Origin: Microbacterium allomyrinae
Lineage (GTDB): Bacteria > Actinomycetota > Actinomycetes > Actinomycetales > Microbacteriaceae
DNA: 64,000 nt
NCBI RefSeq assembly: GCF_020682705.1
Contig: NZ_JAGTTN010000001.1
Span: 992,001-1,056,000 of the forward strand
Reading direction: 5' to 3'
Of this stretch, positions 35,386-58,088 are shown piece after piece. The notes beneath the pieces were generated by a model, which ran no database searches, was not told where the DNA came from, and saw only the letters and a list, made by a program, of their open reading frames with translations. Position numbers and translations under genes: made by a program. Positions within the stretch are counted from its first letter, which is position 1, and every line of letters begins with the position of its first letter.

Positions 35386-35398
35386 CGGCGTCCCGATG

Positions 35399-40341: not shown

Positions 40342-40378
40342 CGGTGCCTCTCGTTCTCTGATGTTCTCGACAGGTGCC

Positions 40379-43300
40379 TCACCAGGTGCGGTGGGCCTGA
40401 CTGATCCCGATCTCGCCCAGGTGGAATCCGCCCGGGCTCTCGCCCGCGCCCTGGGGCATGACGTGGTCTTCGGCGGCATCGCCCGGCGGAAGGAGCGATA
40501 CCTCGAGCGCGGCGATCGATGACCGCCCCTGCCACTCCTCGACATCGACGGCGACGCGATTCCAGCCGGCCGGCCAGCTCGTGCCGGCCGCGAGCAGCTG
40601 CGAGCCGTCCGAGGCGATGAGACGGATTGTCGGACGCGAGCCGCGGCTCCACCGGTCGTCGCAGAGGTCCACGAGCGCATAGAGGAAGGTCGCGTCGGAG
40701 GCATCGAGCGGATGCAGGAACTCGATCCGCGCGATCGGGGGGTCTACTGCGCGGCCGGACGTCACCTCGACGACGGCACCGGCAGGCTGCGCGTGAGGTA
40801 TCGGCATGCAGTTGAGGCCCGCCATCGTCTGCAGAGCGCCGAGTCCCTGAGCGTGAAGGGTGCCGTCCGACAGCGCTTCGGCCAGCAGACCGCGAGATCC
40901 GGTGACATCGCCGGCGCGGGGGGCGATCGAGGGCGCCGTCCACTTCTCGGAGTCCGCACCGGGGACGAAGATCTCGCGGCGCAGCGCGGCGACGCGGAAC
41001 TCGTGACGCCCGGCGGCGACTTCGCGCGTCGCGGTGCCGGGCAGGACCACGGTTGCCAGAGACCCCACGGGCACGTCCAGCTCGATCGTGGCGACATCAT
41101 CGACGATCCGGTACGCGATCCGGATCGTGCCGAGCGGTGTCTGCGTCTGGAGGTGCAGGTCGTCGAGACCGGCGACGAACTGCGGCGCGACGGCGAACGT
41201 GCGGTAGCCGGCGGATGTCGGCGCGAGACCTGCCAGCGCGTGCCAGACCCACCCCGCGAACACCCCGCCGAGGCCGACATGGTCGAGCGAGCCGGTGCCG
41301 GTGTTGGTCGGGTCGATCCACCAGCACTCCCAGAACGTCCCCGGCCCGGACGCCAGCATCGCGCCGATGCCGGGTTCGGCGGGCTGCTCGAGCATGTCGG
41401 CGACCACCTGCGATCGCCCCGTCGCCGTGAGTGCGCGCACGATCGTCCTCGTGGTGGCGAAACCGCCCGAGATGCGGTTGCCGCGCGCCCGCACATCCTG
41501 CTCGATGCGCTCTGCGGCCTGTTCGGCGTCGGCTCCGGTGAGGATGCCGGCGTCGATGGCTGCCGCGTACGCGCCCTGCGATCCGTTGGCGAACACCCCG
41601 CGATCGGGATCGTGGAACCGTGCGCGAGCGGCCGCGCGCAGACGTTCCACGTGCTCCCACCATGTCGCCGAGGCGGCGGCATCCCCCACCTCCGCCTCCA
41701 GGCGGCTCAGGGCGAGCAGGCAGTCGATCGCGGCCGCGGTGTGGTGCACTTCGGGAGGGGTCTGCTCCAGGGCGAGCCAGTCGTGACCGTAGCTGATCGG
41801 CGATCGGGCGATGACACCGGTGTCGTCCGCGCAGGACAGCTGGAACGCCGCCCACCGGCGAAGGCCGGGCAGCGCCTCACGCACGAGAAGCTCGTCGCCG
41901 TAGTGCAGCCAGTGCCCCAGCAGCACGCGGTGCAGCGCCGCTCCCCACACCGGGTCGGCGGGCAGCCGCGGAGAGCGGACGTCGGGAGCGATCGCGGGCA
42001 GGCCGCCGTCTGCGGCCTGGCTGGTGAGCAGGTCGCGGATCCACTTGGCGAAGAAGTTCTCGGTGTCGAAGGCCGCGAGCTCGTACTCGGCGACCGACGC
42101 GGTGTCGCCGGTCCAGGCCGACTGCTCCCTGGTCGGGCAGTCCTCGGGCACGCCGTGCACGTTGTTGAGCAGCGTGCGCTCGGCGCGCTCGAGCAGTCGC
42201 TCGATCGTCGGGCTCCCCGTGGTGATCCGGCCGCTCCGCTCGAGGTCCGTGTGGAGGATCCCGGCGGTGGCGTGAACATCCGCATCGTCGGGAAGTCCCT
42301 GCACCTCTACATAGCGGAACCCGTGGTAGGCGAACCAGGCCTCGACCACGTCACCGGGCTCCCCCGTCGCGAGCCATTCGACGACCTGGCGCTCGCGCCC
42401 GTCGTCGAAGGGCATCATCAGGTTCGTCGTGTCGAGACGTCCATCCGCGCCGACGTGCTCGCCGTGTATCGAGCGCACGCGCGTCCCGCGCGGCAGGGCG
42501 CCGAGCACCTCGATCCGGCTGCGGCCGGCGATGTTGGTTCCCGCGTCGTAGAGGCGGATGCCGGCGCTGCGCCCGATCTCGACCAGCGGCACACGGGAGA
42601 CCACGTGCGCCGGCGGCGTCGGATCGGGTTCGACGACCGACGGCGGCAGCGCGGGGTCGTCGGACTCGTCTGCGGGAGCGAGGCGGGCCGACGGCGCGAG
42701 GGGAACCCAGCAGGGGTCGGCCTCGACGGCGGCGTCGTGCCGTTCGACATAGAACGGGTCCTCGAGAGTCACGCGGCTCGCCGATACCACCGCCTCGGTG
42801 TCGGGGACGATCGTGGTGCGCGTTCCGTCCGGATGCCAGATCACCAGTTCGGCGAGCACGCGCGGCTCGAGTCCGGTGCGACTCCATTCGCCCATCGCCA
42901 CCACGAGATCGAGGTCGTTGTGCCCCGCAGCGAGGATGTCGCCCACGTCGTAGCAGCGGTAGAGCGCGCGGCCGGCATCCGTGCGGGTGGGGTCGAGGTG
43001 GCCGGCGTTGACCGCCTCGCCGTTGATCTCCGATCGGACGAGCCCCTGCCCGGTCAGATAGAGGCGGCCGCGCTGAACCGGCTTGCGCAGTTCGAACGAG
43101 CGGCGCAGCCGAGACCGCGCCGGGACGCTGATCCACTCCGCCTGCCAGTCCGCGAGTGTCGATGGACCGGTCTCGAACTCCGAGCGGACCCATGGCGACC
43201 ACCGGCCGTCCCCGCCCTGCAGGCGAACGGCCACGAGGTAGCGTTGACGAGGACTCAGGGTCGTGTCGACCGTGACCGAGGTGCCGGACGACTCCACGCG

Positions 43301-43534
43301 CCCCGTCGACCACACACGATCGCCGTCTTCGTCCGCGACCTCCACCTCGTAGGCTGTTCGGCTCTCGTCGACCCGCCAGGAGAGCCGAGGATGGGAACGG
43401 ATCGCCACGTCGACCCCGCGACTCTCACCTTCGCCTCGATGAGCGCGACCGTCGATGAGGAGCCCGAACGGCGTCGGTGCGCCCGCGTGCACGCCGGCCG
43501 ACGCATCCGTGCGCGGATCGTTCTGAAGTGTCAT
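40379..43534 (-). CDS. GH78 alpha-L-rhamnosidase with extra C-terminal domain
   Basis: The 1051-residue protein starts at ATG 43534 with AGAGG upstream and lacks a signal peptide. Domain order follows GH78, with catalytic motif DCPTREQSAWTGD near 466 (Asp, Glu +5, Asp +12) and base Glu in GTFWECWWIDPTN. Unlike the other GH78 here it carries about 190 additional residues (860-1051), apparently a beta-sandwich ending with GGFHLGEIGISQAH. That segment is unidentified and may bind carbohydrate. It is the first gene of the operon continuing with GH35, GH78 and the hydrolase, and it diverges from the ABC importer operon. Confidence 0.9.
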   Translation of the reverse strand: MTLQNDPRTDASAGVHAGAPTPFGLLIDGRAHRGEGESRGVDVAIRSHPRLSWRVDESRTAYEVEVADEDGDRVWSTGRVESSGTSVTVDTTLSPRQRYLVAVRLQGGDGRWSPWVRSEFETGPSTLADWQAEWISVPARSRLRRSFELRKPVQRGRLYLTGQGLVRSEINGEAVNAGHLDPTRTDAGRALYRCYDVGDILAAGHNDLDLVVAMGEWSRTGLEPRVLAELVIWHPDGTRTTIVPDTEAVVSASRVTLEDPFYVERHDAAVEADPCWVPLAPSARLAPADESDDPALPPSVVEPDPTPPAHVVSRVPLVEIGRSAGIRLYDAGTNIAGRSRIEVLGALPRGTRVRSIHGEHVGADGRLDTTNLMMPFDDGRERQVVEWLATGEPGDVVEAWFAYHGFRYVEVQGLPDDADVHATAGILHTDLERSGRITTGSPTIERLLERAERTLLNNVHGVPEDCPTREQSAWTGDTASVAEYELAAFDTENFFAKWIRDLLTSQAADGGLPAIAPDVRSPRLPADPVWGAALHRVLLGHWLHYGDELLVREALPGLRRWAAFQLSCADDTGVIARSPISYGHDWLALEQTPPEVHHTAAAIDCLLALSRLEAEVGDAAASATWWEHVERLRAAARARFHDPDRGVFANGSQGAYAAAIDAGILTGADAEQAAERIEQDVRARGNRISGGFATTRTIVRALTATGRSQVVADMLEQPAEPGIGAMLASGPGTFWECWWIDPTNTGTGSLDHVGLGGVFAGWVWHALAGLAPTSAGYRTFAVAPQFVAGLDDLHLQTQTPLGTIRIAYRIVDDVATIELDVPVGSLATVVLPGTATREVAAGRHEFRVAALRREIFVPGADSEKWTAPSIAPRAGDVTGSRGLLAEALSDGTLHAQGLGALQTMAGLNCMPIPHAQPAGAVVEVTSGRAVDPPIARIEFLHPLDASDATFLYALVDLCDDRWSRGSRPTIRLIASDGSQLLAAGTSWPAGWNRVAVDVEEWQGRSSIAALEVSLLPPGDAAEDHVMPQGAGESPGGFHLGEIGISQAHRTW

Positions 43535-43570
43535 GCGTCGTTGCCTCTGCAGCTCGGGTTCACGTTTGGT

Positions 43571-43584
43571 GTGAATGCTTTCAC
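43571..43584. promoter_or_regulatory. LacI-type operator before the GH78 gene
   Basis: GTGAATGCTTTCAC is a 14-bp dyad with perfect 5-bp arms and a central GC, resembling catabolite or LacI-family operators. It lies 37 nt upstream of the rhamnosidase start in the divergent intergenic region. The LacI regulator at 47268-48281 is the obvious candidate. Confidence 0.5.
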
Positions 43585-43684
43585 TTCCGGACGCTCGCCG
43601 CAAATGCGTCGGCAAATTCCCGGAAAATCAATGCTGTTTCGACATCCGCTCTCTAGCGTCCCGTCCCCATCGCGAGCGTTCGGC

Positions 43685-43726
43685 TTGACATCTTCGATGA
43701 AAAGGGTCTAAGAATGAATCGATTTA
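43685..43726 (+). promoter_or_regulatory. Promoter with LacI-type operator for the ABC importer operon
   Basis: A perfect TTGACA (43685-43690) is followed after 16 bp by TCTAAG (43707-43712). TGAATCGATTTA (43715-43726), with AATCGATT as perfect palindrome, covers the expected start site. This arrangement is typical of repression by a LacI protein and shows that translation must begin downstream of the ATG at 43714. Confidence 0.6.
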
Positions 43727-43776
43727 CTCGACACGCAACCCAGCGTTCGGATGAAACTCAACGACGAGAGGCCGAT

Positions 43777-44790
43777 GTGACACAGGTGAGGGAACAGCGC
43801 GACACAGAGACGCTGGTCGTCGCGGGAAGTCCCCGGCCCGCGGGGCCCGGAGGACGGGTGCGCCGGCGCCGGATCGGCGGCGGGGTGTATCTCGCGCTCC
43901 TTCCCGTCTTCATCCTGCTGGGACTGTTCCAGTTCTACCCGGCGCTGAGCGGCATCTGGTTCTCCTTCTGGGACTGGCGCCCCTCGGGCGGTTCGACGTT
44001 CACCGGACTCGACAACTACGTCCGGATGCTGGGCGACACGGTGTGGTGGGACTCGTTCAAGAACCTCGGCATCATCTTCGTATTCAACGTGGTGATGTGG
44101 GTCTTCCCGCTGCTGGCCGCAGAACTGCTCATCACGCTCAAGCACGAACGCTCCGCGTTCGTGTATCGCACGCTGCTCATCATCCCGATGGCCTTCCCGG
44201 GCGTCGTGACGGCACTGGTCTGGCAGTTCTTCTACGACCCCAACAACGGCGTGTTCAACGCCGTCCTCGAGGCGGTCGGACTGGGTGCGCTCGCGCAGAA
44301 CTGGACCGGAGACCCCGACACCGCCCTGCTCTCGCTCCTGTTCGTCGGCTTCCCGTTCATCGCGGGTCTGCCGTTCCTGATCATCTACTCCAGCCTGCAG
44401 AACATCCCCAAAGAGATCTTCGAAGCCGCCGCCCTCGACGGCGTCGGCAGGCTCCGCCGGGTCTGGCTGTTCGACCTGCCGCTGATGGCCAGCCAGGTGC
44501 GCATCCTCCTCTTCCTCGGCGTCGTCGGAACCCTGCAGTACGGCTTCACCGCATACGTCCTCACCGGCGGCGGACCCGACAACGCCACGGTCGTGCCCAT
44601 CCTCCGCGTGCTGAACATGGCCTTCCAGGGCGGCCAATGGGGCTACGCCGCCGCACTGTCGACCACCCTGTTCGCCATCACACTCGCCCTCAGCTGCGTC
44701 GTGATGTTCTGGCGCCGACGCGATCCGGTCGATCAACCCATCGATCCCACGCTCGAAGTCGGCGCCGTCGAGATCCGGAGCACACAATGA
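43777..44790 (+). CDS. Carbohydrate ABC importer permease 1 (MalF-like)
   Basis: GTG 43777 is preferred: GAGAGG lies at correct spacing, and the promoter above makes the earlier in-frame ATG 43714 untranscribed. The resulting 337-residue protein has a basic N-terminus (RVRRRRIGGG), then six transmembrane helices and the EAA loop FEAAALDGVGRLRRVWLFDL, which docks the ATPase. It pairs with the next gene, which it overlaps by ATGA. Import of rhamnose- or galactose-containing oligosaccharides is inferred from the divergent glycosidases. Confidence 0.9.
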   Translation: MTQVREQRDTETLVVAGSPRPAGPGGRVRRRRIGGGVYLALLPVFILLGLFQFYPALSGIWFSFWDWRPSGGSTFTGLDNYVRMLGDTVWWDSFKNLGIIFVFNVVMWVFPLLAAELLITLKHERSAFVYRTLLIIPMAFPGVVTALVWQFFYDPNNGVFNAVLEAVGLGALAQNWTGDPDTALLSLLFVGFPFIAGLPFLIIYSSLQNIPKEIFEAAALDGVGRLRRVWLFDLPLMASQVRILLFLGVVGTLQYGFTAYVLTGGGPDNATVVPILRVLNMAFQGGQWGYAAALSTTLFAITLALSCVVMFWRRRDPVDQPIDPTLEVGAVEIRSTQ

Positions 44791-45644
44791 CCACCCTCGT
44801 CCAGCCCACCACAGTCGCCTCCGCTCGCCGCAGCCCCCGCCAATGGGGCGTTCACATCGCCCTGCTGATCTTCGTCGTCCTCAGCCTCGCGCCGTACGTT
44901 TTCATGCTGATCACGTCGCTCAAGACGAACCAGCAGTACAACGAGAGCTTCTGGGCCATCGCGCTGCCCTTCCACTGGGAGAACTTCGGCACGGCCTGGG
45001 TGCAGATCCAGCCCTACCTCATCGCCTCCGTCGCGGTTGCCGCGGCATCCGTGATCGGGATCGTCGCCGTCTCGCTCCTCGCAGGCTTCGTCTTCGCCCG
45101 CTTCACCTTCCGGGGCCGCGGCCTGCTCTACACCCTGATCGCCGCACTCCTGATGGTTCCCAGCATCGCCAGCCTCATTCCGCTGTTCCTGATGATGCGC
45201 GATTTCAACCTGCTCAACACCATGGCGGTGCTGATCATCCCTCAGATCGCCGGCGGCGCCGTGCTCGGCACCATCCTGATGCGCGCCTATATCGAGGGCA
45301 TCCCGCAGACGATCTTCGAGGCCGCCCAGATCGATGGCGCCGGACCCTTCCGCGTGTTCCGCTCGATCATGCTCCCGCTCTCGCTCCCCGTGATCGGAAC
45401 CGTCAGCCTCGTCACCGTCCAAGCCGTGTGGAACGACTTCTTCTGGCCGCTGCTGACCGTCACCGACAACAGCCTGAAGACCGTCTCCGTCGGCCTGCTG
45501 TTCTTCCAGGGCCAATCCGCCACCGCGTTCGGCCCCATGTTCGCCGGCTACTTCCTCGCGAGCATCCCCCTCTTGATCCTCTTCGTCTTCTTCTCCCGGT
45601 ACTTCCTCGCCGGGGTCCAAGGCGGCCTTCCCGGATCGCACTGA
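44787..45644 (+). CDS. Carbohydrate ABC importer permease 2 (MalG-like)
   Basis: The 285-residue protein has six hydrophobic helices and the EAA loop FEAAQIDGAGPFRVFRSIML followed by PLSLPVIGT. It starts within the stop of permease 1 (ATGA). Its binding-protein gene is 60 nt downstream. No ATP-binding subunit is encoded in this operon, so a shared MsiK-type ATPase encoded elsewhere is expected. Confidence 0.92.
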   Translation: MTTLVQPTTVASARRSPRQWGVHIALLIFVVLSLAPYVFMLITSLKTNQQYNESFWAIALPFHWENFGTAWVQIQPYLIASVAVAAASVIGIVAVSLLAGFVFARFTFRGRGLLYTLIAALLMVPSIASLIPLFLMMRDFNLLNTMAVLIIPQIAGGAVLGTILMRAYIEGIPQTIFEAAQIDGAGPFRVFRSIMLPLSLPVIGTVSLVTVQAVWNDFFWPLLTVTDNSLKTVSVGLLFFQGQSATAFGPMFAGYFLASIPLLILFVFFSRYFLAGVQGGLPGSH

Positions 45645-45704
45645 CCCGGCTCACACCGAAGCCGCGGCACCCACCCAGCACCACAGCACGATCAAAGGAG
45701 AGAA

Positions 45705-47147
45705 ATGCTCACACCACACAGGGCGGCGACGAGGCGGACCACTGCGGTCCTGGCCGCTGCGGCCATCACGGGTCTCACGCTCGCGGGCTGCTCCGCCAGC
45801 GGCGAATCGAGCGACAAGGTCGTCATCACCCTCGCCGGGCCGAACCAGTGGAACTCCCAGTCCGACAGTTTCGGACAGGAGTGGGAGGACCTCATCGCCG
45901 CGTTCGAGGAGGCCGAAACCGGCATCGAGGTCAAGACCACGGTGCTGCCCCTCGCCAGCTTCGCAGACACGCTGACGACCCAGCTCGCCGCCGGCACCGC
46001 GCCCGAGCTCATCTTCAACCAGCCGCAGCCGGCGCCCGATCAGGTCGTCGCGCTGGACGACTACCTGGCCGAGCCCAACCCCTACAACGCCGACGCCGAT
46101 TCCTGGCTCGACGAGTTCAACCCGAACGCCTACGGCGACGCACAGCGCGATGCGAAGGGCCAGCTCTACTGGGTTCCCTTCAACCTCGTGATCGCCGGGC
46201 TGTTCTACAACCAGGAAGCACTCGACGACGCCGGGGTCGAGGCGCCGATCGCGAGCATCGGCGACCTGATCGACGCCTGCTCCGCACTCAAAGACGCCGG
46301 ATACACGCCCCTGGCGATGGACAACGGCTCGCTGGGCACCGGCTGGACGTCGGAGACGCTCCTGTCGAGCCTGCTCAACAAGTACGGCGCCGAATGGAAC
46401 GTCTTCGATGCCGCAGGCGAGCCGGGAACCGCGACGAGCGTCACGAACAAGAGCCTCGTCAAGGCGATCCTGACCGGTGAACTCGACGCCACGAAGACCC
46501 CCGAGGTTCGCGAGGCGGTGTCGCTCCTGAAGGAGATCTTCGACAACTGCGCCACCGAGAACTGGTCGGGCGTGGCCGCGTCGGGGCAGTTCGTGGGCGG
46601 TCAGGAGTTCCTCGCGGGCGACGCGGCGATGGCGTGGGGCACCAACTTCGCCATCAGCAACCTCGCCGATGTCGACTGGGAGTGGTCCAGCATGCCGTTC
46701 CCGAGCGTGACCAAGACCGACACTCCGCTCTCGGACGGCAGCGAGGCGCGCTTCGGCGCCGTCGCGGGCGGTACGAGCTACATGATTCCGGCAACGACCA
46801 AGGGCGAGAAGCTCGAGGCCGCGGTCAAGTTCCTCCAGTTCGCCTCGAGCCCGGCCACGAACGGCGACTGGGTGGCAGCGACCGACACGATTCCCGCGAC
46901 GTCGGATGCGTCGACCGCGTCCGAGGGCGTCGGCGGGCTCGTGACGGGCGAGTGGGCGAAGCCGCGCCTGATCAGCATCGGGTCCAACTCCCCGAAGGCG
47001 GACTCCGGCTCTAACCTGTGGGAGGGGTACCTCCTGGGCACCCGCACTCTCGATGAGCAGCTCGCGTACATCCAGACCGGATGGGTGGGCTGGGCCGAAG
47101 AGGCCGTGGCCGAGGCCGGCATCACCGAGGACTGGGCGACCCAGTAA
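45705..47147 (+). CDS. Sugar-binding lipoprotein of the rhamnoside-locus importer
   Basis: This 480-residue SBP_bac_1 protein begins at ATG after a perfect AAAGGAGAG. The lipoprotein signal ends LTLAGC-SAS, giving an anchored extracellular receptor. The mature chain has typical cluster B features such as VVITLAGPNQW, TTQLAAGTAPELIF, LYWVPFNLVIAGLFYNQEAL and GTSYMIPATTKG. It delivers oligosaccharides to the two preceding permeases. Transcription should stop at the 13-bp stem just downstream. Confidence 0.92.
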   Translation: MLTPHRAATRRTTAVLAAAAITGLTLAGCSASGESSDKVVITLAGPNQWNSQSDSFGQEWEDLIAAFEEAETGIEVKTTVLPLASFADTLTTQLAAGTAPELIFNQPQPAPDQVVALDDYLAEPNPYNADADSWLDEFNPNAYGDAQRDAKGQLYWVPFNLVIAGLFYNQEALDDAGVEAPIASIGDLIDACSALKDAGYTPLAMDNGSLGTGWTSETLLSSLLNKYGAEWNVFDAAGEPGTATSVTNKSLVKAILTGELDATKTPEVREAVSLLKEIFDNCATENWSGVAASGQFVGGQEFLAGDAAMAWGTNFAISNLADVDWEWSSMPFPSVTKTDTPLSDGSEARFGAVAGGTSYMIPATTKGEKLEAAVKFLQFASSPATNGDWVAATDTIPATSDASTASEGVGGLVTGEWAKPRLISIGSNSPKADSGSNLWEGYLLGTRTLDEQLAYIQTGWVGWAEEAVAEAGITEDWATQ

Positions 47148-47267: not shown

Positions 47268-48281
47268 ATGGCTGTCGGCATCCGCGATGTCGCCGAACTG
47301 GCGAAAGTCTCAGCCGGGACCGTCTCGAAGTATCTGAACACGCCCACGCGCGTGGCGCCGGCGACCTCGAAGCGCATCAAGGACGCGATCGCCGCCCTCG
47401 GATACGTGCGCAACGATGCCGCACGGCAGCTGCGCGCGGGACGAAGCCGCACCGTGGGCCTGCTCGCGTTCGACATCGCCAACCCGTTCTTCATCGACCT
47501 CGCCCACGGCGTCGAGCAGCGAGCCACCACTCACGGCCTCTCGGTGCTCCTCGGCAACAGCGATGAGGACGAGGAACGGGAGGGACGCTACCTCGACCTG
47601 TTCGAAGAGCAGCGCGTGCACGGCGTGCTCGTGTCGCCCATCGGATCGATCGACCACCGCATCGAGCGCTTCCACCGACAGGGCATCCCTGTGGTGCTCC
47701 TCGACAAGATGGGTGATCCCGCACTGAGCCCGTCGGTCTCGATCGACGATGTGGCCGGCGGGTACATGGCGGCTGCGCATCTGGTGTCCCGCGGCCGCAC
47801 GCGCATCGCCTTCGTCGGCGGTCCGGAAGGGCTTCGCCAGGTCGACGACCGGCTCACCGGAGCACGTCGAGCCGTCGCCGACCATCCGGGCGTGACTCTC
47901 GAGGTCATCCCGGTGCACAACCGCGACGTCGAGGAGGGCAGCCGCGTCGGCGAGTCCCTGCTCCTGCGGCCTCCCCATCAGCGTCCCGACGGCATCTTCG
48001 CGATGAACGACCGCCTGGCCTTCGGGCTCCTGCAGACGATCGTCACCGAGGGACGCGTGCGGGTTCCCGACGAGATGGCCATCATCGGCTACGACGACAT
48101 CGAGTTCGCCGCCGCCGCGGTGGTCCCGCTGAGCTCTATCCGGCAGCCGCGCGAGGAGTTCGCCTCCGCAGCGGTCGACCTGCTCGTCTCCGAGGACATG
48201 TCGCTCGACGTCCCCCGGCATCCGCAGATCGTCCTGCAGCCCGCCCTCGTGGTCCGCGCGAGCACGAGTCAGGCACGCTAG
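47268..48281 (+). CDS. LacI-family repressor of the rhamnoside locus
   Basis: The 337-residue protein starts at ATG after AAGGAG. The HTH is at 3-25 (IRDVAELAKVSAGTVSKYLN) with hinge helix around APATSKRIKDAIAALGY. The periplasmic-binding-like effector domain follows, with SFDIANPFF-type and IIGYDDIEFAAAAVVPLSSI segments. It has its own start region after a terminator, directly downstream of the importer genes. The operators at 43571 and 43715 are its likely targets. The inducer is unknown, probably a sugar from the same pathway. Confidence 0.9.
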   Translation: MAVGIRDVAELAKVSAGTVSKYLNTPTRVAPATSKRIKDAIAALGYVRNDAARQLRAGRSRTVGLLAFDIANPFFIDLAHGVEQRATTHGLSVLLGNSDEDEEREGRYLDLFEEQRVHGVLVSPIGSIDHRIERFHRQGIPVVLLDKMGDPALSPSVSIDDVAGGYMAAAHLVSRGRTRIAFVGGPEGLRQVDDRLTGARRAVADHPGVTLEVIPVHNRDVEEGSRVGESLLLRPPHQRPDGIFAMNDRLAFGLLQTIVTEGRVRVPDEMAIIGYDDIEFAAAAVVPLSSIRQPREEFASAAVDLLVSEDMSLDVPRHPQIVLQPALVVRASTSQAR

Positions 48282-48369: not shown

Positions 48370-48996
48370 TCAGACGACGATTGCGTCGCGCAGGAGCGCG
48401 GCGGCGGCACCCACGTCGGAGGCGCTGTAGATCGCGCTGCCGGCGACCGCGATGCGGGCGCCCGAACTCTGCACGGCGCCGATGCTCGACGCGTTCACGC
48501 CCCCGGCGACGGAGAACGGCACACCGGATGCCTCGCCGTCGCGCAGCAGGGTCTCGAACGTGAAGCCCTCCTCGGCCTGCTCGTCGAGACCGGCGTGCAT
48601 CTCGACGAACTCGGCGCCGAGCGCGACGACCTCCTTGGCACGGGCGGGCTTGTCGGCGACCCCGATGAGGTCGACGACGACGCCCTTGCCGTGCTTCGTG
48701 GCGGCCTTGACGGCGCCCACGATCGTGCTGTCGCCGGCAGTGCCGAGCACTGTGACGAGGTCGGCGCCGGCGGCGAATGCGATCTCGGCCTCGAGCTCAC
48801 CGGCATCCATCGTCTTGAGGTCGGCGAAGACGATCTTGTCGGGGTGGGCGTTCTTGATCGCGGTGACGGCCGAGAGCCCCTCGCTCTTGATGAGCGGGGT
48901 GCCGAGCTCGAGGATGTCGACGTGCGGCGCCGCTGCGGCGGCGAGCGCGAGCGCGTGCTCGGTGGTCAGGGTGTCGATGGCGAACTGCAGCTTCAT
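48370..48996 (-). CDS. hxlA: 3-hexulose-6-phosphate synthase
   Basis: The 208-residue protein starts at ATG 48996 behind AAGGAA. The orotidine-decarboxylase-like barrel has all HPS landmarks: MKLQFAIDTL, ILELGTPLIKSEGL, VFADLKTMDAGELEAEIAFA, GADLVTVLGTA and FVEMHAGLDEQAEEG. HPS condenses formaldehyde with ribulose 5-phosphate, or runs in reverse to supply ribulose 5-phosphate. It is paired with phosphohexuloisomerase 46 nt upstream, the usual ribulose monophosphate unit for formaldehyde detoxification or pentose balance. Confidence 0.93.
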   Translation of the reverse strand: MKLQFAIDTLTTEHALALAAAAAPHVDILELGTPLIKSEGLSAVTAIKNAHPDKIVFADLKTMDAGELEAEIAFAAGADLVTVLGTAGDSTIVGAVKAATKHGKGVVVDLIGVADKPARAKEVVALGAEFVEMHAGLDEQAEEGFTFETLLRDGEASGVPFSVAGGVNASSIGAVQSSGARIAVAGSAIYSASDVGAAAALLRDAIVV

Positions 48997-49042
48997 ACTG
49001 TTCCTTCTGTTGTGGCGGGGTATTCGAAGGGGTGGGGAGGAG

Positions 49043-49624
49043 TCACTCGATGTTCGCGTGGCGGGGCCACAGGTCGTCCGCATCGAGCCCGCTCCGGCGC
49101 CAGAGCGCGTGGAAGATGCCGTCGCCGATCACGACGACCGCCTGCTCGAACAGGCTTCCCGCGTACTGGCCCGATACGCTCGCCGATCGGTCGAGCTTGG
49201 CCGCCGCGGGCACCACGATGGTCGCCCGGCCCGCGAGCTGCGCCAACGGAGAAGCGGGATCGGTGGTGATCGCGGCGACCCGTGCTCCCGCGGCCACCGC
49301 GGTGGTCGCGGCGCGCACGATGCCGCCCGTCGTTCCCGATCCGCTCGCGGTGAGCAGCAGGTCGCCGGCGGAAATCGCCGGTGTGGTGACCTCTCCGACG
49401 ACATGCACGTCGAGCCCGAGGTGCATGAGGCGCATCGCGGTCATCCGCAGCGCCAGGCCCGACCGGCCTGCACCGAGCACGAACACGCGGGGCGAATCCG
49501 AGACCAGGTCGGCGACGCGCGCGAGCGCCAGCGGGTCGTCGTGGACGACGCGGTCGACGACAGCGCCGAGTTCGTCCGAGATACGGGTGAGCGAGTACCC
49601 GACGCCTGCTTCGAGAACATCCAT
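49043..49624 (-). CDS. hxlB: 6-phospho-3-hexuloisomerase
   Basis: The protein has 193 residues from ATG 49624. It has a SIS fold with VFVLGAGRSGLALRMTAMRL, the VGEVTTPAISAGDLLLTASG segment and SGSGTTGG loop, and a Gln/Tyr-rich stretch SVSGQYAGSLFEQ, as in other PHI enzymes. It isomerises hexulose 6-phosphate to fructose 6-phosphate. It is the first gene of the hxlBA unit and diverges from a HATPase-LuxR regulator with 91 bp between starts. Confidence 0.9.
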   Translation of the reverse strand: MDVLEAGVGYSLTRISDELGAVVDRVVHDDPLALARVADLVSDSPRVFVLGAGRSGLALRMTAMRLMHLGLDVHVVGEVTTPAISAGDLLLTASGSGTTGGIVRAATTAVAAGARVAAITTDPASPLAQLAGRATIVVPAAAKLDRSASVSGQYAGSLFEQAVVVIGDGIFHALWRRSGLDADDLWPRHANIE

Positions 49625-49711
49625 GGCCCCATCGTGCCCGTGCGGGTGCGCTGACGTGCGCACCTGACCGAGGAGTCCTGCCTGCCCTTACGGGTAGGGA
49701 GGGCATGATGG

Positions 49712-49726
49712 GTAGGTGCCACCTAC
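49712..49726. promoter_or_regulatory. 15-bp palindrome over the regulator start codon
   Basis: GTAGGTGCCACCTAC is a perfect odd-centred palindrome that includes the GTG start of the HATPase-LuxR gene. A related GGGTAGG also occurs at 49692-49698. Its place in the divergent hxlB-regulator region suggests an operator for that regulator. Confidence 0.4.
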
Positions 49727-50597
49727 TCGCTCCGCCACCGACCTCCCCGACGCCGATCTGCCCGACGCCGACCTCCCCTCTTCCGGCATCCCCTCGCCGG
49801 GCACGCGCCGGATGCTGCGCGATCATGCCCGCACCGTCGCCGAGCAGTCCGATCGCCACGCGGTCGTGCTCGAGTCGCTCCTGGCGATCCTCCGCTCCTC
49901 GCGGCTCGACGACAGAGCCGCACGCACGATGGCCATCGACGCCGCGGTCGCATCGCTGGTGCGGCTGCGAATGGAGACGGACGAGCAGCGCAGCACGATG
50001 CTGGAGCCCGTCGTGGGCGCGTTCGCGCGCTTGCGGACCGACCTTCGGCCGCTGGAGCGATTCGGCGACCTCGATGTGCAGTTCATCGAGCCTCCGACCT
50101 CGGGCCGGGCGCTGCCGGGCGAGGTCGCGCACGCGGCGCGCGCGATCGTGCGCAATGCGGTGCTCGCGCTCGTCGACGACGGCGACGCGCGGCGCGTGCG
50201 CATCCAGTGGGACTGCGACGGGCTGAATCTGCTGATCGCGATCCGGGACGACGGCCGAGGAGACCTCTCGGTCCACGACGACGCGCTCCGCCCGATCGGG
50301 GAGCGCGTGAGCGCCCTCAACGGCGAGTTCCACGTGGAGTCCACGACGGGGTGGGGATCCTCGCTCGAGGTGCGCCTGCCCCTCGATCCGCCGAACGATC
50401 CCGAACCGCTCGTCGACGTGGTGTCGCTGTCCGCCCGCGAGCGCGAGGTGCTCCGGCTCGTCGCCACGGGGGCGCGCAATCAGGAGGTCGCGTCGAGCCT
50501 GGGCATCAGCGGCAACACCGTGAAGTTCCACGTGTCGAATCTGCTGCGCAAGACCGGAGCGCGCACGCGTTCCGAACTCGGCTCGCTCGCACGCTGA
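49716..50597 (+). CDS. HATPase-like domain fused to LuxR/NarL DNA-binding domain
   Basis: The 293-residue protein starts at GTG 49716. The first 120 residues are helical with acidic low-complexity DLPDADLPDADLP at the N-terminus. Residues about 130-225 look like a GHKL ATPase: N-box-like AARAIVRNAVLALV, G1 box IRDDGRGD and G2 GWGSSLEVRLPL. Residues 230-293 are a NarL-type HTH (SAREREVLRLVATGARNQEV and GISGNTVKFHVSNLLRKTG). No phosphoacceptor His helix, receiver or membrane sensor is visible. It diverges from hxlBA and is the likely regulator of the formaldehyde genes. The fusion of a sensor-kinase type ATPase to a response-regulator output is unusual. Confidence 0.85.
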   Translation: MPPTRSATDLPDADLPDADLPSSGIPSPGTRRMLRDHARTVAEQSDRHAVVLESLLAILRSSRLDDRAARTMAIDAAVASLVRLRMETDEQRSTMLEPVVGAFARLRTDLRPLERFGDLDVQFIEPPTSGRALPGEVAHAARAIVRNAVLALVDDGDARRVRIQWDCDGLNLLIAIRDDGRGDLSVHDDALRPIGERVSALNGEFHVESTTGWGSSLEVRLPLDPPNDPEPLVDVVSLSAREREVLRLVATGARNQEVASSLGISGNTVKFHVSNLLRKTGARTRSELGSLAR

Positions 50598-50870: not shown

Positions 50871-53807
50871 CTAGCCGCAGGGCTGCGCCGCGTACTCCGC
50901 TTCGACGACCTGCTCGACGGTCTCGCCGCCGATGCGGGCGCTCGCCACGACTTCCGCCGTGCCCGCAGGTGTGGACGCGACCCTCGTCGTGAACACGGAC
51001 GTTGCCGACTTGCCGGCCGCGATCGACGCCACGGTCTTGGAGCCGTATGCGGTCGAGATCGATGACGCGATCGCGACGTCGTCCTCATTCGTGACCTTGA
51101 CGGTCAGGACCGATTTGCCGGCCACGCACCGCGCACTCGCCGTCGCTGAGAACTCGACCGCGGGCGCAGCATCCTCCACCAGCACCGCCAGTTCCGCGAT
51201 CTGGCGTTCCAGCGCTCGGGCGGGAGCCTCGACCTGGTTGTGAGTGGAGAGCGCTTGCGCGGCTGCTGCCGAACGCGCCTTGTCGAGCGCGGACTCGAAC
51301 CCGGCCCACGCCTCAGCCGGGTAGTCCGCCTCCTCCAGCACCTCCGCGACCTCGATCGCGGAGTCGAGTCGCTCGCTCGTCACGGGCACGTCGTCGGCGG
51401 TGAGGACCTTGCTCAGACTGTAGTAGTCGAAGTCGACGGTGCCACCGGCGGACTGGGTCGCGTAGTTGAAGAGCCCCACGCGGTAGCCCATGAAGTGCGA
51501 CAGGCTCCAGTCCATGGTGAGCGGGCCGGTGCGCTGACCCAGCTGCGTCCACTGCCGCCCGTCGAGGCTGTAGTAGTAGCGGATCCATAGTTGGCCCGAC
51601 GTGGAGGCGAAGTCGAGGTCTGCCTTCAGGTGAACCACGCGGTTCGCGCCGAGCGACACCGTAGAGCCCGGCACGAAGCTCTCCACTGCTGCCTGGTCGA
51701 TCGCCGCGGCGAACGGCTGCCCGCGGTAGACGAGTCCGAGCGTGTACTCGCCGGCCACCTTCTTGACGCCGGCGTAGGCGAAACTCCGGCCGTACGTCGC
51801 GAGGCCCGCGACGTCCCCGTCCTTCATGTCCGTCACGTCGATCTTGGTCTCCGCCGACTGCGTGGGACCGAACGTGCGCTGCGACAGGGTGTTGCGCGCC
51901 TCCTCGAGCCACGTCAGCTCATCCTTGGTCGACAGCTTGGCGAACTGGTAGGTCCCCGTGACGACCTTTCCGGTCGTCAGGCTCAGCCATCCTTCCCGAT
52001 CCGTCAGCGACCAGTACCGATTGTCGGGAGCGTGGTTCCACTCCCACGCTGCATCGAGCCTCGATCCGTTGAACGCGATCTCGTCGGGACTCGGCGCTTC
52101 GGTCGAGATCGGCCGACCCTTGAGCGAGACGTCGTCGATCGTGAAGTCCATCAGATGTGTGTCGGGCGCAGCCTGCGCCGAAGCGTTGCTCGTCCACGGT
52201 GTCTCGAAGAAGATCCGCGTCGACGCGAGCGCCTGGGTGTCGGGCACCGTGAAGATGCCCGAGATCTTGGCCCACTGCCCCTTGGTGGCGGTGACGTTCG
52301 CCAGGTTCGTGTACGTGCTCGACCCGTAGCGCGCGGTCATGATGAACTGCTTGGTCGCGGGGCTCGCGGCATTGTCGTACTTCACCCATGCAGACAGGTC
52401 ATAGGTGACCCCGTGCTGCACCTTGCCCGTCAGGTCCTGGGCGGCGCCCGATCCGGTGGTGGTGCGCCCGGTCACCTGCACCGCGCCGGCACCGCCGTGA
52501 GAGCCGGATGTCGAGATCAGCGTCGCCGAATCGTTGACGATCCAGCTGGCGGTCCCGCTCTCGAAACCAGGGTTCGCGAAGAGTTCGACACCGAGCAGAG
52601 ACTCGTCGATGTCGGGAGCGTTCGGGATGGCCCATTCCTCGTCCATCCACGCCTTGTGCGGCGCATCGTTGTCGAAGTCGTCGGACGCGACGATCGACTT
52701 CTGGCGTTCGAGCGCCTCCTGCGCGTCGGTCAACTCGATCGGCTTGTCGAAGCTGCCGCCGTAGGGGACCGAGCCGTTGACTCCGAACGTCGGCCATCCG
52801 TCGGTCCACACGGCGGGGATCAACGCCGGGATGCGGCCGATCGGATACGTGTCGCGGAAGAAGAAGCCGTACCAGTCGGACGCGGCGCCCTCGCGAGTGA
52901 TCTCGACGAGCCCGCCCTGGGCGAAGCCGTTGGAATTCAGCGCGCTCCGCGCCTCGTACGTGTTGGCGCCACCCGGCGCCTGATGCCGCCCCAGAAGATG
53001 CGGAGAGCGGAATACGACCTCTTGGCGGCCCTGACCGCTCGGCCACGTGATGATGAAGATGTAGTAGTAGTCGCCGATCTTGTAGACCTGTGCGCCCTCG
53101 AAGAGGCCGCCGATGTACGGCTGACCGGCGTAGTCGCCGGAGGTGAAGATGTTCGGGAACTCGGCGACGATCTGGGTGAGGTCCTCACTCAGCTGCACCG
53201 CGCTCGTGGCCCCCGACCCGTAGAAGATGTAGGGCGTGCCGCCGTTGGCGTCGTCGAAGAAGAGCGACGGATCGTGGAAGCCGCGGCCGTACGCGGTCTT
53301 GTCCCACGAACCGTTGTCGATGTCGTCGGTGGTGTAGAGATACGCGCCACCGAGGTTGTTGGTGTTGAACAGCACATAGAACTTGCCGTCGTGGAAGCGG
53401 ATCGACGACGCCCACTGCCCCTGACCGTAGGACTCCTTGCCGTTGCGCAGCGACGACGCGTCCGAGATGCTGATCCGGTCGTAGACGTAGTTGACCGTCT
53501 CCCAGTTGACCATGTCGTACGACTTCATGATCGGTGCGCCCGGGCTCAGATGCATGGTCGTGGAGATCATGTAGTAGATGTCACGCCCCTCATCGTTCTC
53601 GGTCGCGGGCACGAGGGTGACGCTCACGTCGGGAACGTCGGAGTTCAGCACGGGCACCGTATACGTGCCGTCGCCACTGTCGGTCGAGGTGTAGGAGCCG
53701 TCGGGCGGGGTATACACCTCTGCGGTGGCGGTGTTCGCACCGGCCACGAGTCCTACGGCGAGCAGCGCGGTGGCCGTGACCATCGAAAGCGCACGTCTGG
53801 TCTTCAT
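50871..53807 (-). CDS. Secreted GH43 glycosidase with CBM inserted before the C-terminal sandwich
   Basis: The 978-residue protein starts at ATG 53807 after AGAGGAAA. Signal peptide runs to about residue 29 (ANTATA). GH43 propeller follows: base Asp in LNSDVPDVSV, second Asp in GFHDPSLFFDD and acid Glu in GGLFEGAQVY; YYMISTTMHLSPGAPI is typical of GH43_12 beta-xylosidases. At about 410-570 a CBM4/22-like sandwich (LFANPGFESGTASW to DDVSLKG) is inserted before the concanavalin-like GH43_C2 domain, recognised by WEWNHAPDNRYWSLTDR. A FIVAR-like helical stretch and the shared two-cysteine module ending AAQPCG complete it. Xylan or arabinoxylan is the probable target. Confidence 0.9.
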   Translation of the reverse strand: MKTRRALSMVTATALLAVGLVAGANTATAEVYTPPDGSYTSTDSGDGTYTVPVLNSDVPDVSVTLVPATENDEGRDIYYMISTTMHLSPGAPIMKSYDMVNWETVNYVYDRISISDASSLRNGKESYGQGQWASSIRFHDGKFYVLFNTNNLGGAYLYTTDDIDNGSWDKTAYGRGFHDPSLFFDDANGGTPYIFYGSGATSAVQLSEDLTQIVAEFPNIFTSGDYAGQPYIGGLFEGAQVYKIGDYYYIFIITWPSGQGRQEVVFRSPHLLGRHQAPGGANTYEARSALNSNGFAQGGLVEITREGAASDWYGFFFRDTYPIGRIPALIPAVWTDGWPTFGVNGSVPYGGSFDKPIELTDAQEALERQKSIVASDDFDNDAPHKAWMDEEWAIPNAPDIDESLLGVELFANPGFESGTASWIVNDSATLISTSGSHGGAGAVQVTGRTTTGSGAAQDLTGKVQHGVTYDLSAWVKYDNAASPATKQFIMTARYGSSTYTNLANVTATKGQWAKISGIFTVPDTQALASTRIFFETPWTSNASAQAAPDTHLMDFTIDDVSLKGRPISTEAPSPDEIAFNGSRLDAAWEWNHAPDNRYWSLTDREGWLSLTTGKVVTGTYQFAKLSTKDELTWLEEARNTLSQRTFGPTQSAETKIDVTDMKDGDVAGLATYGRSFAYAGVKKVAGEYTLGLVYRGQPFAAAIDQAAVESFVPGSTVSLGANRVVHLKADLDFASTSGQLWIRYYYSLDGRQWTQLGQRTGPLTMDWSLSHFMGYRVGLFNYATQSAGGTVDFDYYSLSKVLTADDVPVTSERLDSAIEVAEVLEEADYPAEAWAGFESALDKARSAAAAQALSTHNQVEAPARALERQIAELAVLVEDAAPAVEFSATASARCVAGKSVLTVKVTNEDDVAIASSISTAYGSKTVASIAAGKSATSVFTTRVASTPAGTAEVVASARIGGETVEQVVEAEYAAQPCG

Positions 53808-53857
53808 CTGTTTCCTCTTCGTCGAAAGGGTCGAGCGCTCCGGCGCGCGACACGGAT

Positions 53858-53893
53858 GGGTGGCGGCCGCCGGCCGATCGGCGGCCGCCACCC
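53858..53893 (-). terminator. Stem-loop between the two secreted GH43 genes
   Basis: A perfect 14-bp stem (GGGTGGCGGCCGCC and complement) with an 8-nt loop lies 9 nt after the stop of the upstream GH43 gene. Like the loops at 4959 and 22436 it may cause partial termination inside an operon. Confidence 0.6.
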
Positions 53894-53902
53894 GGTCTCT
53901 CA

Positions 53903-56326
53903 TCAGCCGCAGCTGTGTGCCGCGTAGGGCGCCTCGACCGTGGTCGAGACCGGCTGTCCCTGGACGGTGGCTGTGACGATCACTTCCGCGATCCCGGCGG
54001 TGGTGGCCGCCAGACGTGTCGTGAACGCGTACGACGACGACTTGCCCACCGCGATCGAGGCGACGGCCTTCGACCCGAAGGCCGTCGCGACGGTCGCCGC
54101 CACCGCGACCTCGTCCTCATTCGTCACCTTCACCGTCAGAACCGACTTGCCGGCGACGCAGCGCGAGGTCGCGTCGACGGATACATCGAGCGACGGAACG
54201 GCGGTCGCCTCGGCGAACGACCACGTGTCCAGTTCGAACAGGTCGCCGCTGCCACCGGTGTAGGTGAAGAAGACGTCCTGCGCTCCCGCCGCACCCGACA
54301 GCTCGGCCGTCAGCTCGGTCCACTCGCCTACGGCACCCGTCACCGGGAGCGTGCCGATGACGGCGCCGGTCTCACTGCCGGTGCGGATCTGGATCGCGCC
54401 GCCGGCCTGCAGCGGCTTGACCTTCACTGTCAGCGACTCGGCGCCCGGCTCTCCGAAGGCGACCGACGACAGGGCCGTCCAGTCACCGGCGTCGATGTCC
54501 TTCACGACGAGGTTGGGTGAGGAGGATCCGAACTGCGCCGACCCGCCGTCGACCTTCGCGGTGGCGATGCCCTTGCTCCAGCCGAAGGTCTCGGCCTCGA
54601 ACACGCGGTACGGATCGAAGTCCCGCACCTGGTCGACACCGGCGTACGTTCCCACCACCTGCTGGATGGCGCCGTCCGCATTGAACGTCATCTCCTGGAT
54701 GTGCGGGCTGCGGTATCCCTGTGTGGTGTTGCCGTTGATCCGCTTGTTCAGGGTCGGCGCGTGGTAGGTGAAGTAGTACTTGCCCTCGAACTCGAACGCG
54801 GACTGGTGGTTGTTGCCGCCGGTGCCCGTGCCGAAGAACTGCGACTGGTTCGGGAACAGAACGCCGGCGTACTTCTCCTTGGGGAAGTCGGTCGGGCTGT
54901 CGGAGATCATGTATCCGATCACACCGCCGCCGGGATAGCCGGGCACCGGCGTCTGTGCGCCGCCGAAGTCGGCGCCGCCGAAGTGCGACGAGTACGAGAG
55001 GTAGTACTTGCCCTCGCGCTCGAAAACGTGGCCGGCCTCGAACGAGACGGGGGTGTCGACGACCATCGCCGAGCCCTTCGTGGTGACCATGTCATCCTCG
55101 AGCTCGATCACGCGGATGTTCTTCGGGTTGTTGTAGCGCTCCGCCGCCGGCATGCTCGTCGACGCGGGTCCGCCTCCGAAGTAGAGGTAGGACTTCCCGT
55201 CCTTGTCCACCAGCGGCGCCGGGTCGAACTTCCATGCCACGTCTTCAGCACCCGGCGTCGTGCCGTTGATCAGCGTGCTGCTTCGCTCGCTCTCCCAGGG
55301 CCCCAGCGGGCTCGCACCGGTGACCACGTTGCTCGAGCCGCCGCCGTTGGCGTAGTAGAGGAAGTACTTCTCCTCGCCGTTGACGATCTTCTTGGTGAAG
55401 CCGGGCGCCCACGAGTTGCTCGTGAACGGCGCGATCCCCTGAGGGCCTGCGACCTGGATCTCACCGTGATCGGTCCAGTTCACGAGGTCCTCGGAGGAGA
55501 TCAGCGTGATCTGGTTGATGTTGCCGTAGTTGATCGCAGGCGAAATCCCGGTGACGGGGTCGGGCGCGTAGCCCTGCGTGTCGTTCGTCATGTACATGTA
55601 CACACGGCCGTCTTCGGCATAGCCGAAGCCGTCCGCGCCGAACTTGTGGCCGATGAGGGGGTTGTGCTCGCCCGGCAGTTTGCCGACGACCTCGATGGTC
55701 TTCGAGGGCGGCGGGGGCGGGGGTGCGCCCACGAGCGACACGTCGTCGACCGTGATGTCCATCAAGTGGGTGTCGGGCGCCCCGGTCGCCGTCGCGGCAT
55801 TCACCCACGGCGTTTCGATGAAGATGCGGGTGGTCGCGGCGCTCTGGCTGGCCGGGATCGTGAACGTGGTGTTCACGTAGCCCCACTGGCCCCTGGCAGG
55901 AGTCACGGTGCCGAGGTTGGTGTAGGTCGAGCCCCCGTAGTGCATGGTGACGAAGAACTGCTTGGTGGCGGGGGCATTCGGATTGTCGTACTTGATACGG
56001 GCCTTCAGCGCGTATGTGGATCCGGACTGCAGCTTTCCGCTCAGGTCCTGCATCGGGCCCGCCTGGGTTCCGGTGCGGCCGGTCGAGATCACCGCGCTCG
56101 AGCCGGCATATGCGTCTGTCGTGGTGGCAAGCGTGGTCGTCCCATTGGCGAACCAGCCCTCCATCCCGTTCTCGAACCCTCCGTTGACGATGAGCTCTTC
56201 GTCGGCCGCGGTCGCCGGAACGGCGACGCCGCTGACGATGAGCGCGGTCGCGGCGAACGCGACTCCGATCGCCGCGGTGAGCCGCCTCCGGCGGCTCACA
56301 TCTTGTTGGGGCAGTTGCCTCGTCAC
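53903..56326 (-). CDS. Secreted GH43 glycosidase with N-terminal CBM and C-terminal CBM6
   Basis: The 807-residue protein starts at GTG 56326, four bases after AAGGAGG. Signal peptide ends near VPATAA. Order: CBM4/22-like domain (about 36-180: IVNGGFENGMEGWF to DDVSLVG), a proline linker PPPPPPS, GH43 propeller (200-520; HNPLIGHKFGADGF, WKFDPAPLVDKDG, SFEAGHVFEREGKYY), CBM6 (about 535-690; YRVFEAETFGWSKG to FELDTWSF) and the shared two-cysteine module ending YAAHSCG. The GADGF segment replaces the usual GADPxA of GH43_1 relatives. It precedes a second GH43 gene and has a LacI-like operator overlapping its leader. Confidence 0.9.
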   Translation of the reverse strand: MTRQLPQQDVSRRRRLTAAIGVAFAATALIVSGVAVPATAADEELIVNGGFENGMEGWFANGTTTLATTTDAYAGSSAVISTGRTGTQAGPMQDLSGKLQSGSTYALKARIKYDNPNAPATKQFFVTMHYGGSTYTNLGTVTPARGQWGYVNTTFTIPASQSAATTRIFIETPWVNAATATGAPDTHLMDITVDDVSLVGAPPPPPPSKTIEVVGKLPGEHNPLIGHKFGADGFGYAEDGRVYMYMTNDTQGYAPDPVTGISPAINYGNINQITLISSEDLVNWTDHGEIQVAGPQGIAPFTSNSWAPGFTKKIVNGEEKYFLYYANGGGSSNVVTGASPLGPWESERSSTLINGTTPGAEDVAWKFDPAPLVDKDGKSYLYFGGGPASTSMPAAERYNNPKNIRVIELEDDMVTTKGSAMVVDTPVSFEAGHVFEREGKYYLSYSSHFGGADFGGAQTPVPGYPGGGVIGYMISDSPTDFPKEKYAGVLFPNQSQFFGTGTGGNNHQSAFEFEGKYYFTYHAPTLNKRINGNTTQGYRSPHIQEMTFNADGAIQQVVGTYAGVDQVRDFDPYRVFEAETFGWSKGIATAKVDGGSAQFGSSSPNLVVKDIDAGDWTALSSVAFGEPGAESLTVKVKPLQAGGAIQIRTGSETGAVIGTLPVTGAVGEWTELTAELSGAAGAQDVFFTYTGGSGDLFELDTWSFAEATAVPSLDVSVDATSRCVAGKSVLTVKVTNEDEVAVAATVATAFGSKAVASIAVGKSSSYAFTTRLAATTAGIAEVIVTATVQGQPVSTTVEAPYAAHSCG

Positions 56327-56335
56327 GAATCCTCC

Positions 56336-56349
56336 TTGATCGATAAACC
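56336..56349. promoter_or_regulatory. LacI-type operator before the GH43/CBM6 gene
   Basis: TTGATCGATAAACC lies directly upstream of the GH43 ribosome-binding site. Its 14 bases recur in opposite orientation at 59868-59883, with ATCGAT as palindromic core. LacI genes at 59878 and 61090 are candidate binders. Confidence 0.6.
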
Positions 56350-58067: not shown

Positions 58068-58088
58068 ACGCGCGCAGAGGATTCCGAG

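Follow-up and report, generated by a model that had tools for sequence, protein, structure and literature searches.

The window analysed here, a 64,000-nucleotide stretch of Microbacterium allomyrinae DNA (contig NZ_JAGTTN010000001.1, positions 992,001 to 1,056,000, from a genome of 4.02 Mb), carries the formaldehyde-fixing gene pair hxlB and hxlA and, divergent from it, a gene for a 293-residue protein that we consider likely to be a phosphorylation-independent, formaldehyde-responsive one-component activator of hxlBA. The protein appears to be a one-component regulator built from two-component parts, with a probable role in the response to formaldehyde, and is probably a formaldehyde-responsive switch of a kind not yet described. 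The proposal is built on the computed identities of the genes, the domain anatomy of the regulator, the loss of its phospho-histidine and N-box, a conserved neighbourhood and a conserved inverted repeat. A first-pass annotation, made from the letters alone, had already suggested a one-component switch at this locus. That suggestion stands: the regulator has no receiver and no phospho-histidine, and with an operator-like repeat and a conserved gene pairing it probably controls hxlBA through the divergent region.

The regulator and its degenerate kinase core

Both enzyme genes lie above their NCBIfam cut-offs, in agreement with their first naming. HxlA (3-hexulose-6-phosphate synthase, 208 residues; positions 48370–48996, minus strand) scores 244.1 bits against TIGR03128 (cut-off 200) and also matches the Pfam OMPdecase/HUMPS family, and HxlB (6-phospho-3-hexuloisomerase, 193 residues; 49043–49624, minus strand) scores 222.3 bits against TIGR03127 (cut-off 160). 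The hxlB start is probably the ATG at 49624 (MDVL...) rather than an upstream GTG at 49663, because the MDVL start is common to relatives such as that at locus L044. The pair is read in the order hxlB–hxlA on the minus strand, and the regulator gene (49716–50597, plus strand) diverges from it across an intergenic region at 49625–49715, with gene order and divergence as first claimed.

The regulator ends in a GerE/LuxR-type helix-turn-helix (HTH; residues 237–289, positions 50424–50582, plus strand), which matches Pfam PF00196 with 63.8 bits (cut-off 23.5, E 1.1e-17) and, in an independent profile search, the NarL DNA-binding domain 1je8 (E 4.5e-13). The NarL-type HTH of the first-pass annotation is therefore confirmed. 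A Pfam scan of the protein up to E 0.1 found no receiver (Response_reg), no known sensor domain, no LuxR autoinducer-binding domain, no HxlR winged-helix domain and, despite the fold described below, no HisKA_3 match; at that threshold the protein lacks a receiver and falls outside the HxlR family, as had been proposed. Its assignment to the GHKL ATPases is weak by sequence, with a HATPase_c match of 21.2 bits that stays under the Pfam cut-off of 26.4, whereas the fold is clear in an AlphaFold model.

This model, which took the window protein together with 51 relatives as its input (mean predicted local distance difference test score 78.9, predicted template modelling score 0.55), shows a two-helix hairpin (residues 28–60 and 66–92), a GHKL-type alpha/beta domain (residues 99–222) and a four-helix HTH (residues 240–292). 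Comparison with Foldseek and VIA placed the core nearest to HisKA_3-type kinases, namely the CA domain of VraS (4gt8; VIA Z 17.1, root-mean-square deviation 2.6 over 129 residues), DesK (3ehj_A; Z 16.4, deviation 2.1 over 121 residues) and DosS (3zxo; Z 15.1, deviation 2.6 over 121 residues), and the independent profile search also returned the DosS CA domain (3zxo, E 1.4e-4). By the model, then, the regulator is an entire kinase core joined to an HTH. A DHp-like hairpin (residues 28–92, positions 49797–49991, plus strand), located by the model and by hhalign, precedes a degenerate GHKL/CA domain (residues 99–225, positions 50010–50390, plus strand), supported by the VIA alignments to 4gt8 and 3zxo and by column counts. 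The earlier description of a lone ATPase domain fused straight to an HTH has to be given up.

An hhalign comparison of the regulator profile with four HisKA_3 kinases from the same genome (E 1.9e-8) placed S45 (codon 49848–49850, plus strand) on the phospho-histidine position, N147 on the N-box Glu and A151 on the N-box Asn. A reading of N147 as the N-box Asn was rejected on the same alignment. These columns were followed through 164 relatives, obtained from 200 regulator-bearing loci by removing 34 that repeat the last 230 residues of another and two fragments (L028 and L092). None of the 164 has His at column 45, Glu at column 147 or Asn at column 151. The histidine phosphoacceptor, reported missing from the window protein, is thus missing from all of them, and for these aligned relatives the columns rule out the usual phosphotransfer. 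The N-box holds Mg-ATP. Because its Glu and Asn are absent from all 164 relatives, ordinary Mg-ATP binding is unlikely, and gating by ATP, which had been offered as the switch, was dropped as the leading idea.

Much of the domain is nevertheless kept. In the G1 motif DxGxG, D178 is present in all 164 relatives and G180 and G182 in 163 each; W213, in the GWG at 212–214, is found in all 164; and R131, P134, R142, R146, R160, R162, W165, D168 and R177 are nearly invariant. The GHKL ATPase boxes first described are accordingly there in part, as G1 and GWG, while the N-box is gone. Such columns indicate a GHKL domain that is under strong constraint though non-catalytic, and the old pocket may take another ligand or have a purely structural role.

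The relatives divide into a short form like the window protein (91 rows) and a long form (73 rows). A single branch parts the two, and its support is 100 (SH-aLRT, an approximate likelihood ratio test, by the quick method). The tree was rooted for drawing, and its root does not fix whether the N-terminal domain of the long form was gained or lost; the short protein of Corynebacterium deserti (L043) sits on a very long branch and its placement is unsure. The long proteins, 413–422 residues in three annotated plasmid copies, carry an additional N-terminal domain of about 130 residues (for example L039:5545-5990), which in most of the 73 rows contains the motif [IV]FTxxCTGRPxK. Searches with 37 aligned stretches out of 72 located gave a best Pfam E of 0.014, with at most 2 of the 37 members per family and none consistent, and a single match up to E 10 among PDB structures, to a ribosomal protein fragment (E 0.039), which is not meaningful. 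From its sequence pattern we would guess that the domain is GAF-like. The long forms suggest that the regulator family can carry an N-terminal input domain, and the claim that the regulator has no sensor keeps its force for the window protein and the short forms and loses it for the 73 of 164 relatives with the additional domain.

Formaldehyde enzymes beside the regulator genes

A survey of this architecture and its neighbours had been suggested as a check, and it was run in 99 congeneric genomes, where regulator matches reach at least 235 bits and the next best match 45.6 bits. Strong matches number 29, in 26 of the 99 genomes, and every one of the 29 adjoins a formaldehyde enzyme: 20 are divergent from hxl genes and nine lie beside fdhA, which encodes a glutathione-independent formaldehyde dehydrogenase identified by TIGR02819 (733 bits, cut-off 637). 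The second copy in genome G053 was counted as hxl-linked from hxlA and its distance alone, and the fdhA of G090 is under the cut-off and has an internal stop. For comparison, 11 other LuxR-type loci (seven from the window's own genome and four from congeners) have no enzymes encoded by hxl genes, fdhA or mscR (mycothiol-dependent formaldehyde dehydrogenase) in their 1.5-kb flanks. The pairing of regulator and formaldehyde enzyme in the genus sample is far beyond chance. Read from the enzyme side, 20 of the 21 hxlA genes that pass the cut-off in the 99 congeners have the regulator alongside. The sole one without it lies at G062:C37:235805-236410 (L250), in a locus where we take the gene preceding hxlB, named by eye, to be glutamate dehydrogenase-like.

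A search of a named genome collection found 353 relatives, mostly in Microbacteriaceae and many in Microbacterium; the collections used here overlap, and counts from different ones are not additive. The best 80 of the 353 comprise 68 with hxlB and hxlA divergent, one with hxlB alone at a contig end, three with hxlA alone, four with fdhA, two at a contig edge and two (L051 and L082) with none of the enzymes sought inside 5 kb.

In a second family of genomes (the G106 family, probably Micrococcaceae, since it resembles plasmid loci of Arthrobacter), a relative of the regulator occurs in 39 of 197 genomes, and the best 30 of 42 matches lie beside hxlBA (23) or fdhA (one) or have nothing sought within 1.5 kb (six). 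Four of these six were viewed at 5 kb: L203, L204 and L205 hold gnd, opcA or zwf by BLAST, and L209 was assigned pentose-phosphate neighbours from two proteins like those of L203. At L203, family models identify transaldolase, transketolase, ribose-5-phosphate isomerase, ribulose-phosphate epimerase and phosphogluconate dehydrogenase, and every one of the five exceeds at least one cut-off. Pentose-phosphate enzymes regenerate the formaldehyde acceptor. A third family (G395, probably Mycobacteriales) has a relative in 66 of 251 genomes; the best 30 of 74 matches comprise two beside hxlBA, ten beside mscR and 18 with nothing within 1.5 kb, and when six of these 18 were extended to 5 kb, mscR was found in all six. 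At one G395-family locus (L169) hxlBA is downstream of the regulator and not divergent. Plasmids of several genera also carry the regulator module. All five plasmid loci read have hxlBA, and three of them (L039 of Streptomyces cellulosae, L040 of Arthrobacter and L043 of Corynebacterium deserti) add mscR and a hydrolase of the metallo-beta-lactamase fold. The gene pairing is conserved across families.

Some further observations concern individual loci. The copy at L082 adjoins genes assigned to HpnZ, PhnX-like and HpnW, which are putative phosphonate families, and a protein upstream is, read by eye, presumably PurU-like. Two G106-family genomes, G665 and G594, have two regulator copies each. 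The plasmid clusters at L039 and L043 also hold an FdhA-like dehydrogenase (537.8 bits at L039, under the cut-off of 637) with transposase or recombinase genes near, and are possibly portable formaldehyde-resistance modules. In the window itself, the locus lies within an island for plant cell-wall sugars (34210–47147 and 50871–58985) with two alpha-L-rhamnosidases, a GH35 protein, two GH43 proteins with carbohydrate-binding modules and genes for sugar ATP-binding cassette transporters. Our guess for a source of formaldehyde is the methyl groups of pectin, by way of methanol. Control of hxlBA by the neighbouring LacI gene (47268–48281), which would mean regulation by sugar, was considered and rejected, as that gene is convergent with hxlA and outside the divergent unit.

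An inverted repeat in the divergent region

The stretch at 49625–49716, picked out earlier as the place to look for binding, contains an operator-like inverted repeat, CCTGCCC-TTAC-GGGTAGG (49681–49698), whose consensus among relatives is CCTACCC-N4-GGGTAGG. Among 110 distinct regulator–hxlB intergenic regions, the 7-mer CCTACCC occurs on either strand in 90 (shuffled sequences gave 4.0), and the dyad ACCC-N4-GGGT is present in 48 (shuffled sequences gave 1.1), figures that flatter the motif because its consensus was learned from the same, related loci. With up to two mismatches in 14, the full repeat is found in 79 of these 110 hxl-linked regions, and again in 79 (60 of 84 short, 19 of 26 long) when spacers of 2 to 7 are allowed. 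In windows around the regulator start it is present at 78 of the 108 loci that have hxl alone, against 0.10 expected.

As a stronger test, the repeat was also sought in whole genomes. Of 26 chosen regulator-bearing genomes, most of which had also contributed to the motif, 11 have the strict pattern MCTACCCN4GGGTAGK, each at a single site, and 3 have the reversed pattern. Ten of the 11 strict sites are at the regulator, in or edging the gap to the divergent enzyme gene (hxlB in nine, fdhA in one), and nine of the ten come from the 21 congeners tested.

The half-sites are spaced by 11 bp, one helical turn, which fits binding by a dimer. Measured from the hxlB start, the repeat has its centre about 65 bp upstream, and it shares bases with the presumed -35 of the regulator gene; this position suggests activation of hxlBA together with autoregulation. 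A second half-site, GGGTAGG (49710–49716, plus strand), covers the regulator start, and six bases 5' of the GTG start codon a CATGAT hexamer (49704–49709, plus strand) is a possible -10 of a leaderless regulator transcript; both are also present in the close relatives L053 and L054.

Operator-like sites also turned up elsewhere in the G106 family. A perfect copy at G106:C1:839632-839649 (L236) lies upstream of a gene that we take, by eye, to be inositol-3-phosphate synthase-like and that would presumably feed mycothiol. As a true target it was rejected and taken as chance, because the genomes of five out of five congeners have no match to the related pattern. Two others, at G507:C33:13050-13067 (L238) and G619:C1:681316-681333 (L239), have no regulator, hxl gene, fdhA or mscR in the 3 kb fetched.

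Mechanism, alternatives and known systems

We propose that the kinase core neither makes nor passes phosphate. The DHp hairpin would dimerise the regulator, and the degenerate GHKL domain would serve as an allosteric body positioning two LuxR-type HTHs. On a rise of formaldehyde, or of a direct adduct, for instance an S-hydroxymethyl thiol, the dimer would bind CCTACCC-N4-GGGTAGG and turn on hxlBA, whose products would then fix formaldehyde onto ribulose-5-phosphate. Since the site covers the presumed regulator promoter, the regulator would probably limit its own expression. Formaldehyde or its thiol adduct, and not a sugar phosphate of the ribulose monophosphate (RuMP) pathway, is argued to be the signal because hxlBA, fdhA and mscR all serve to remove formaldehyde.

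How formaldehyde might be sensed is suggested by analogy. The Bacillus hxlAB genes are described as controlled by HxlR (PMC8879981, PMC7835342), which senses formaldehyde through a methylene bridge between Cys11 and Lys13 (PMC7835342), and because of this bridge the conserved cysteines and the CTGRPxK motif are the prime sensing candidates in the present family. The window regulator has a single cysteine, C167, in a conserved WDCDG hairpin (codon 50214–50216, plus strand); it is present in all 91 short and in 65 of 73 long relatives and is the best candidate for a sensing residue. Long forms have an N-terminal Cys52 in 66 of 73 rows. The seven without Cys52 are fdhA-linked, and the eight without Cys167 belong to the G395 family, five of them with mscR inside the 1.5-kb flanks; the losses are concentrated mainly in two groups. 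An exchange between the two cysteines was considered, since every long form has at least one of them, but the expected number of double losses is about 0.8 (7 x 8 / 73), and the pattern is not significant. By this analogy the dead kinase core might itself be a direct formaldehyde sensor, acting at Cys167 in the short form and through a Cys–Lys methylene bridge at CTGRPxK in the long form, as a portable module set on hxlBA or fdhA and perhaps mscR, with the operator CCTACCC-N4-GGGTAGG limited to the regulator's own lineages. In this full form the idea is tentative, and we doubt it more than we credit it.

The conservation of the old pocket leaves room for a ligand there. As the first-pass annotation supposed, a nucleotide or a metabolite could control DNA binding from the ATP pocket, a RuMP sugar phosphate being one example. 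The retention of G1 (164, 163 and 163 of 164) with GWG, R131, R142, R146, R160, R162 and R177 almost invariant perhaps goes further than a remnant of purely structural use would require. The loss of the N-box Glu and Asn from all 164 relatives makes the usual Mg-ATP an unlikely ligand, however, and RuMP sugar phosphates suit poorly those copies that adjoin fdhA or mscR instead of hxlBA, so that we regard this pocket gate as unlikely. Alternatively, the hairpin could have a genuine HisKA_3 kinase as its partner, and the signal state of that kinase would shift the HTH, which would make the regulator the output arm of a different sensor. Pairing of a pseudokinase is known for RetS and GacS, and a RetS–GacS structure is among those listed in our fold comparison; the regulator retains a full DHp-like hairpin despite the loss of its phospho-histidine, and nine HisKA_3 matches in its own genome exceed the cut-off. 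Yet the annotations of the plasmid loci L039, L041, L042 and L043 name no histidine kinase (kinases near other loci were not searched for; an unnamed ATP-binding protein lies at the edge of L042), and a module found on plasmids of several genera is a poorer fit to a fixed chromosomal partner. We consider such a partnership very improbable. If the protein instead simply repressed hxlBA and its own gene until formaldehyde released it, this would account for a half-site over the start of the regulator gene and for a repeat that runs into the presumed -35 of that gene. Against this, NarL/LuxR-type activators usually bind where the repeat has its centre, about 65 bp upstream from the start codon of hxlB, and repression seems to us an unlikely account.

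Several results weigh against a formaldehyde-responsive activator acting at this repeat. Congener G062 has hxlBA and no regulator, and in 19 of the 27 congeneric genomes whose fdhA passes the cut-off, no regulator lies alongside it. Among the 60 G106- and G395-family loci, 24 lack these enzymes within 1.5 kb, ten of which were extended to 5 kb, and L051 and L082 lack the enzymes sought within 5 kb, although L051 keeps the repeat with one mismatch. The window's own repeat is imperfect, with one mismatch to the consensus, and with up to two mismatches the repeat is found at 3 of 13 fdhA-linked, 0 of 9 mscR-linked and 2 of 28 enzyme-free loci. In the window's own genome a relaxed pattern occurs at 31 places and its reversed control at 86, which shows no enrichment, and no further regulon target can be named from it. 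In 12 regulator-bearing G106-family genomes the slightly looser pattern MYTACCCNNNNGGGTARK occurs at three places (in G106, G507 and G619), none of them at the regulator, hxl, fdhA or mscR, and the reversed pattern occurs in five genomes; at the regulator, that family has the repeat in degenerate form only. For lineages other than that of the window, this result moderates the case for the operator. It leaves our confidence in the activator unchanged, because that claim rests mainly on the neighbourhood and on the protein. The upstream position of the repeat suggests activation, short of proof. Many residues beside C167 are invariant too, which makes the conservation of this cysteine by itself weak evidence for sensing.

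A review names FlhRS, HxlR, TtmR, AdhR and FrmR as formaldehyde regulators, with FlhRS, FrmR, AdhR and TtmR in its Table 5, and the term LuxR is absent from its main text (PMC8879981). FlhRS is a working two-component pair (PMC8879981), unlike the regulator here. Among the matches listed in the open-access literature (titles and the beginnings of abstracts) there is no paper on such a regulator and none on an actinobacterial formaldehyde regulator of this kind. FrmR, AdhR and TtmR belong to other fold families than the present regulator. Bacillus and proteobacteria have known formaldehyde regulators, and the family described here would fill an actinobacterial gap. It would offer a candidate operator together with a switch that consists of one gene and works free of phosphorylation, of possible use as a formaldehyde biosensor or in engineering methanol use in actinobacteria. 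It also presents a histidine-kinase core that has stayed under strong constraint after the loss of catalysis and become joined to a DNA-binding domain, which makes the conversion of a two-component into a one-component system directly testable.

The regulator resembles several known systems in part. It would share with HxlR of Bacillus, a member of the MarR/DUF24 family, the task of controlling hxl genes, but it belongs to a different protein family. Like the multi-domain LuxR regulators of actinobacteria (PAS-, AAA-, HDc- and FHA-LuxR among others), it combines a LuxR HTH with an additional domain and has no receiver (PMC3466318). A figure legend in that survey names the domains REC, PAS, HDc, AAA, CHD, FHA, PKc, TPR and CSP, and the term HATPase is absent from its main text (PMC3466318). 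In its predicted DHp and CA fold the regulator is like the kinases VraS, DesK and DosS (DevS); it differs from them in having neither phospho-histidine nor N-box and in being fused to an HTH instead of working with a response-regulator partner. With the NarL/LuxR-type response regulators it shares the C-terminal GerE HTH, and where these have a receiver it has a dead kinase core.

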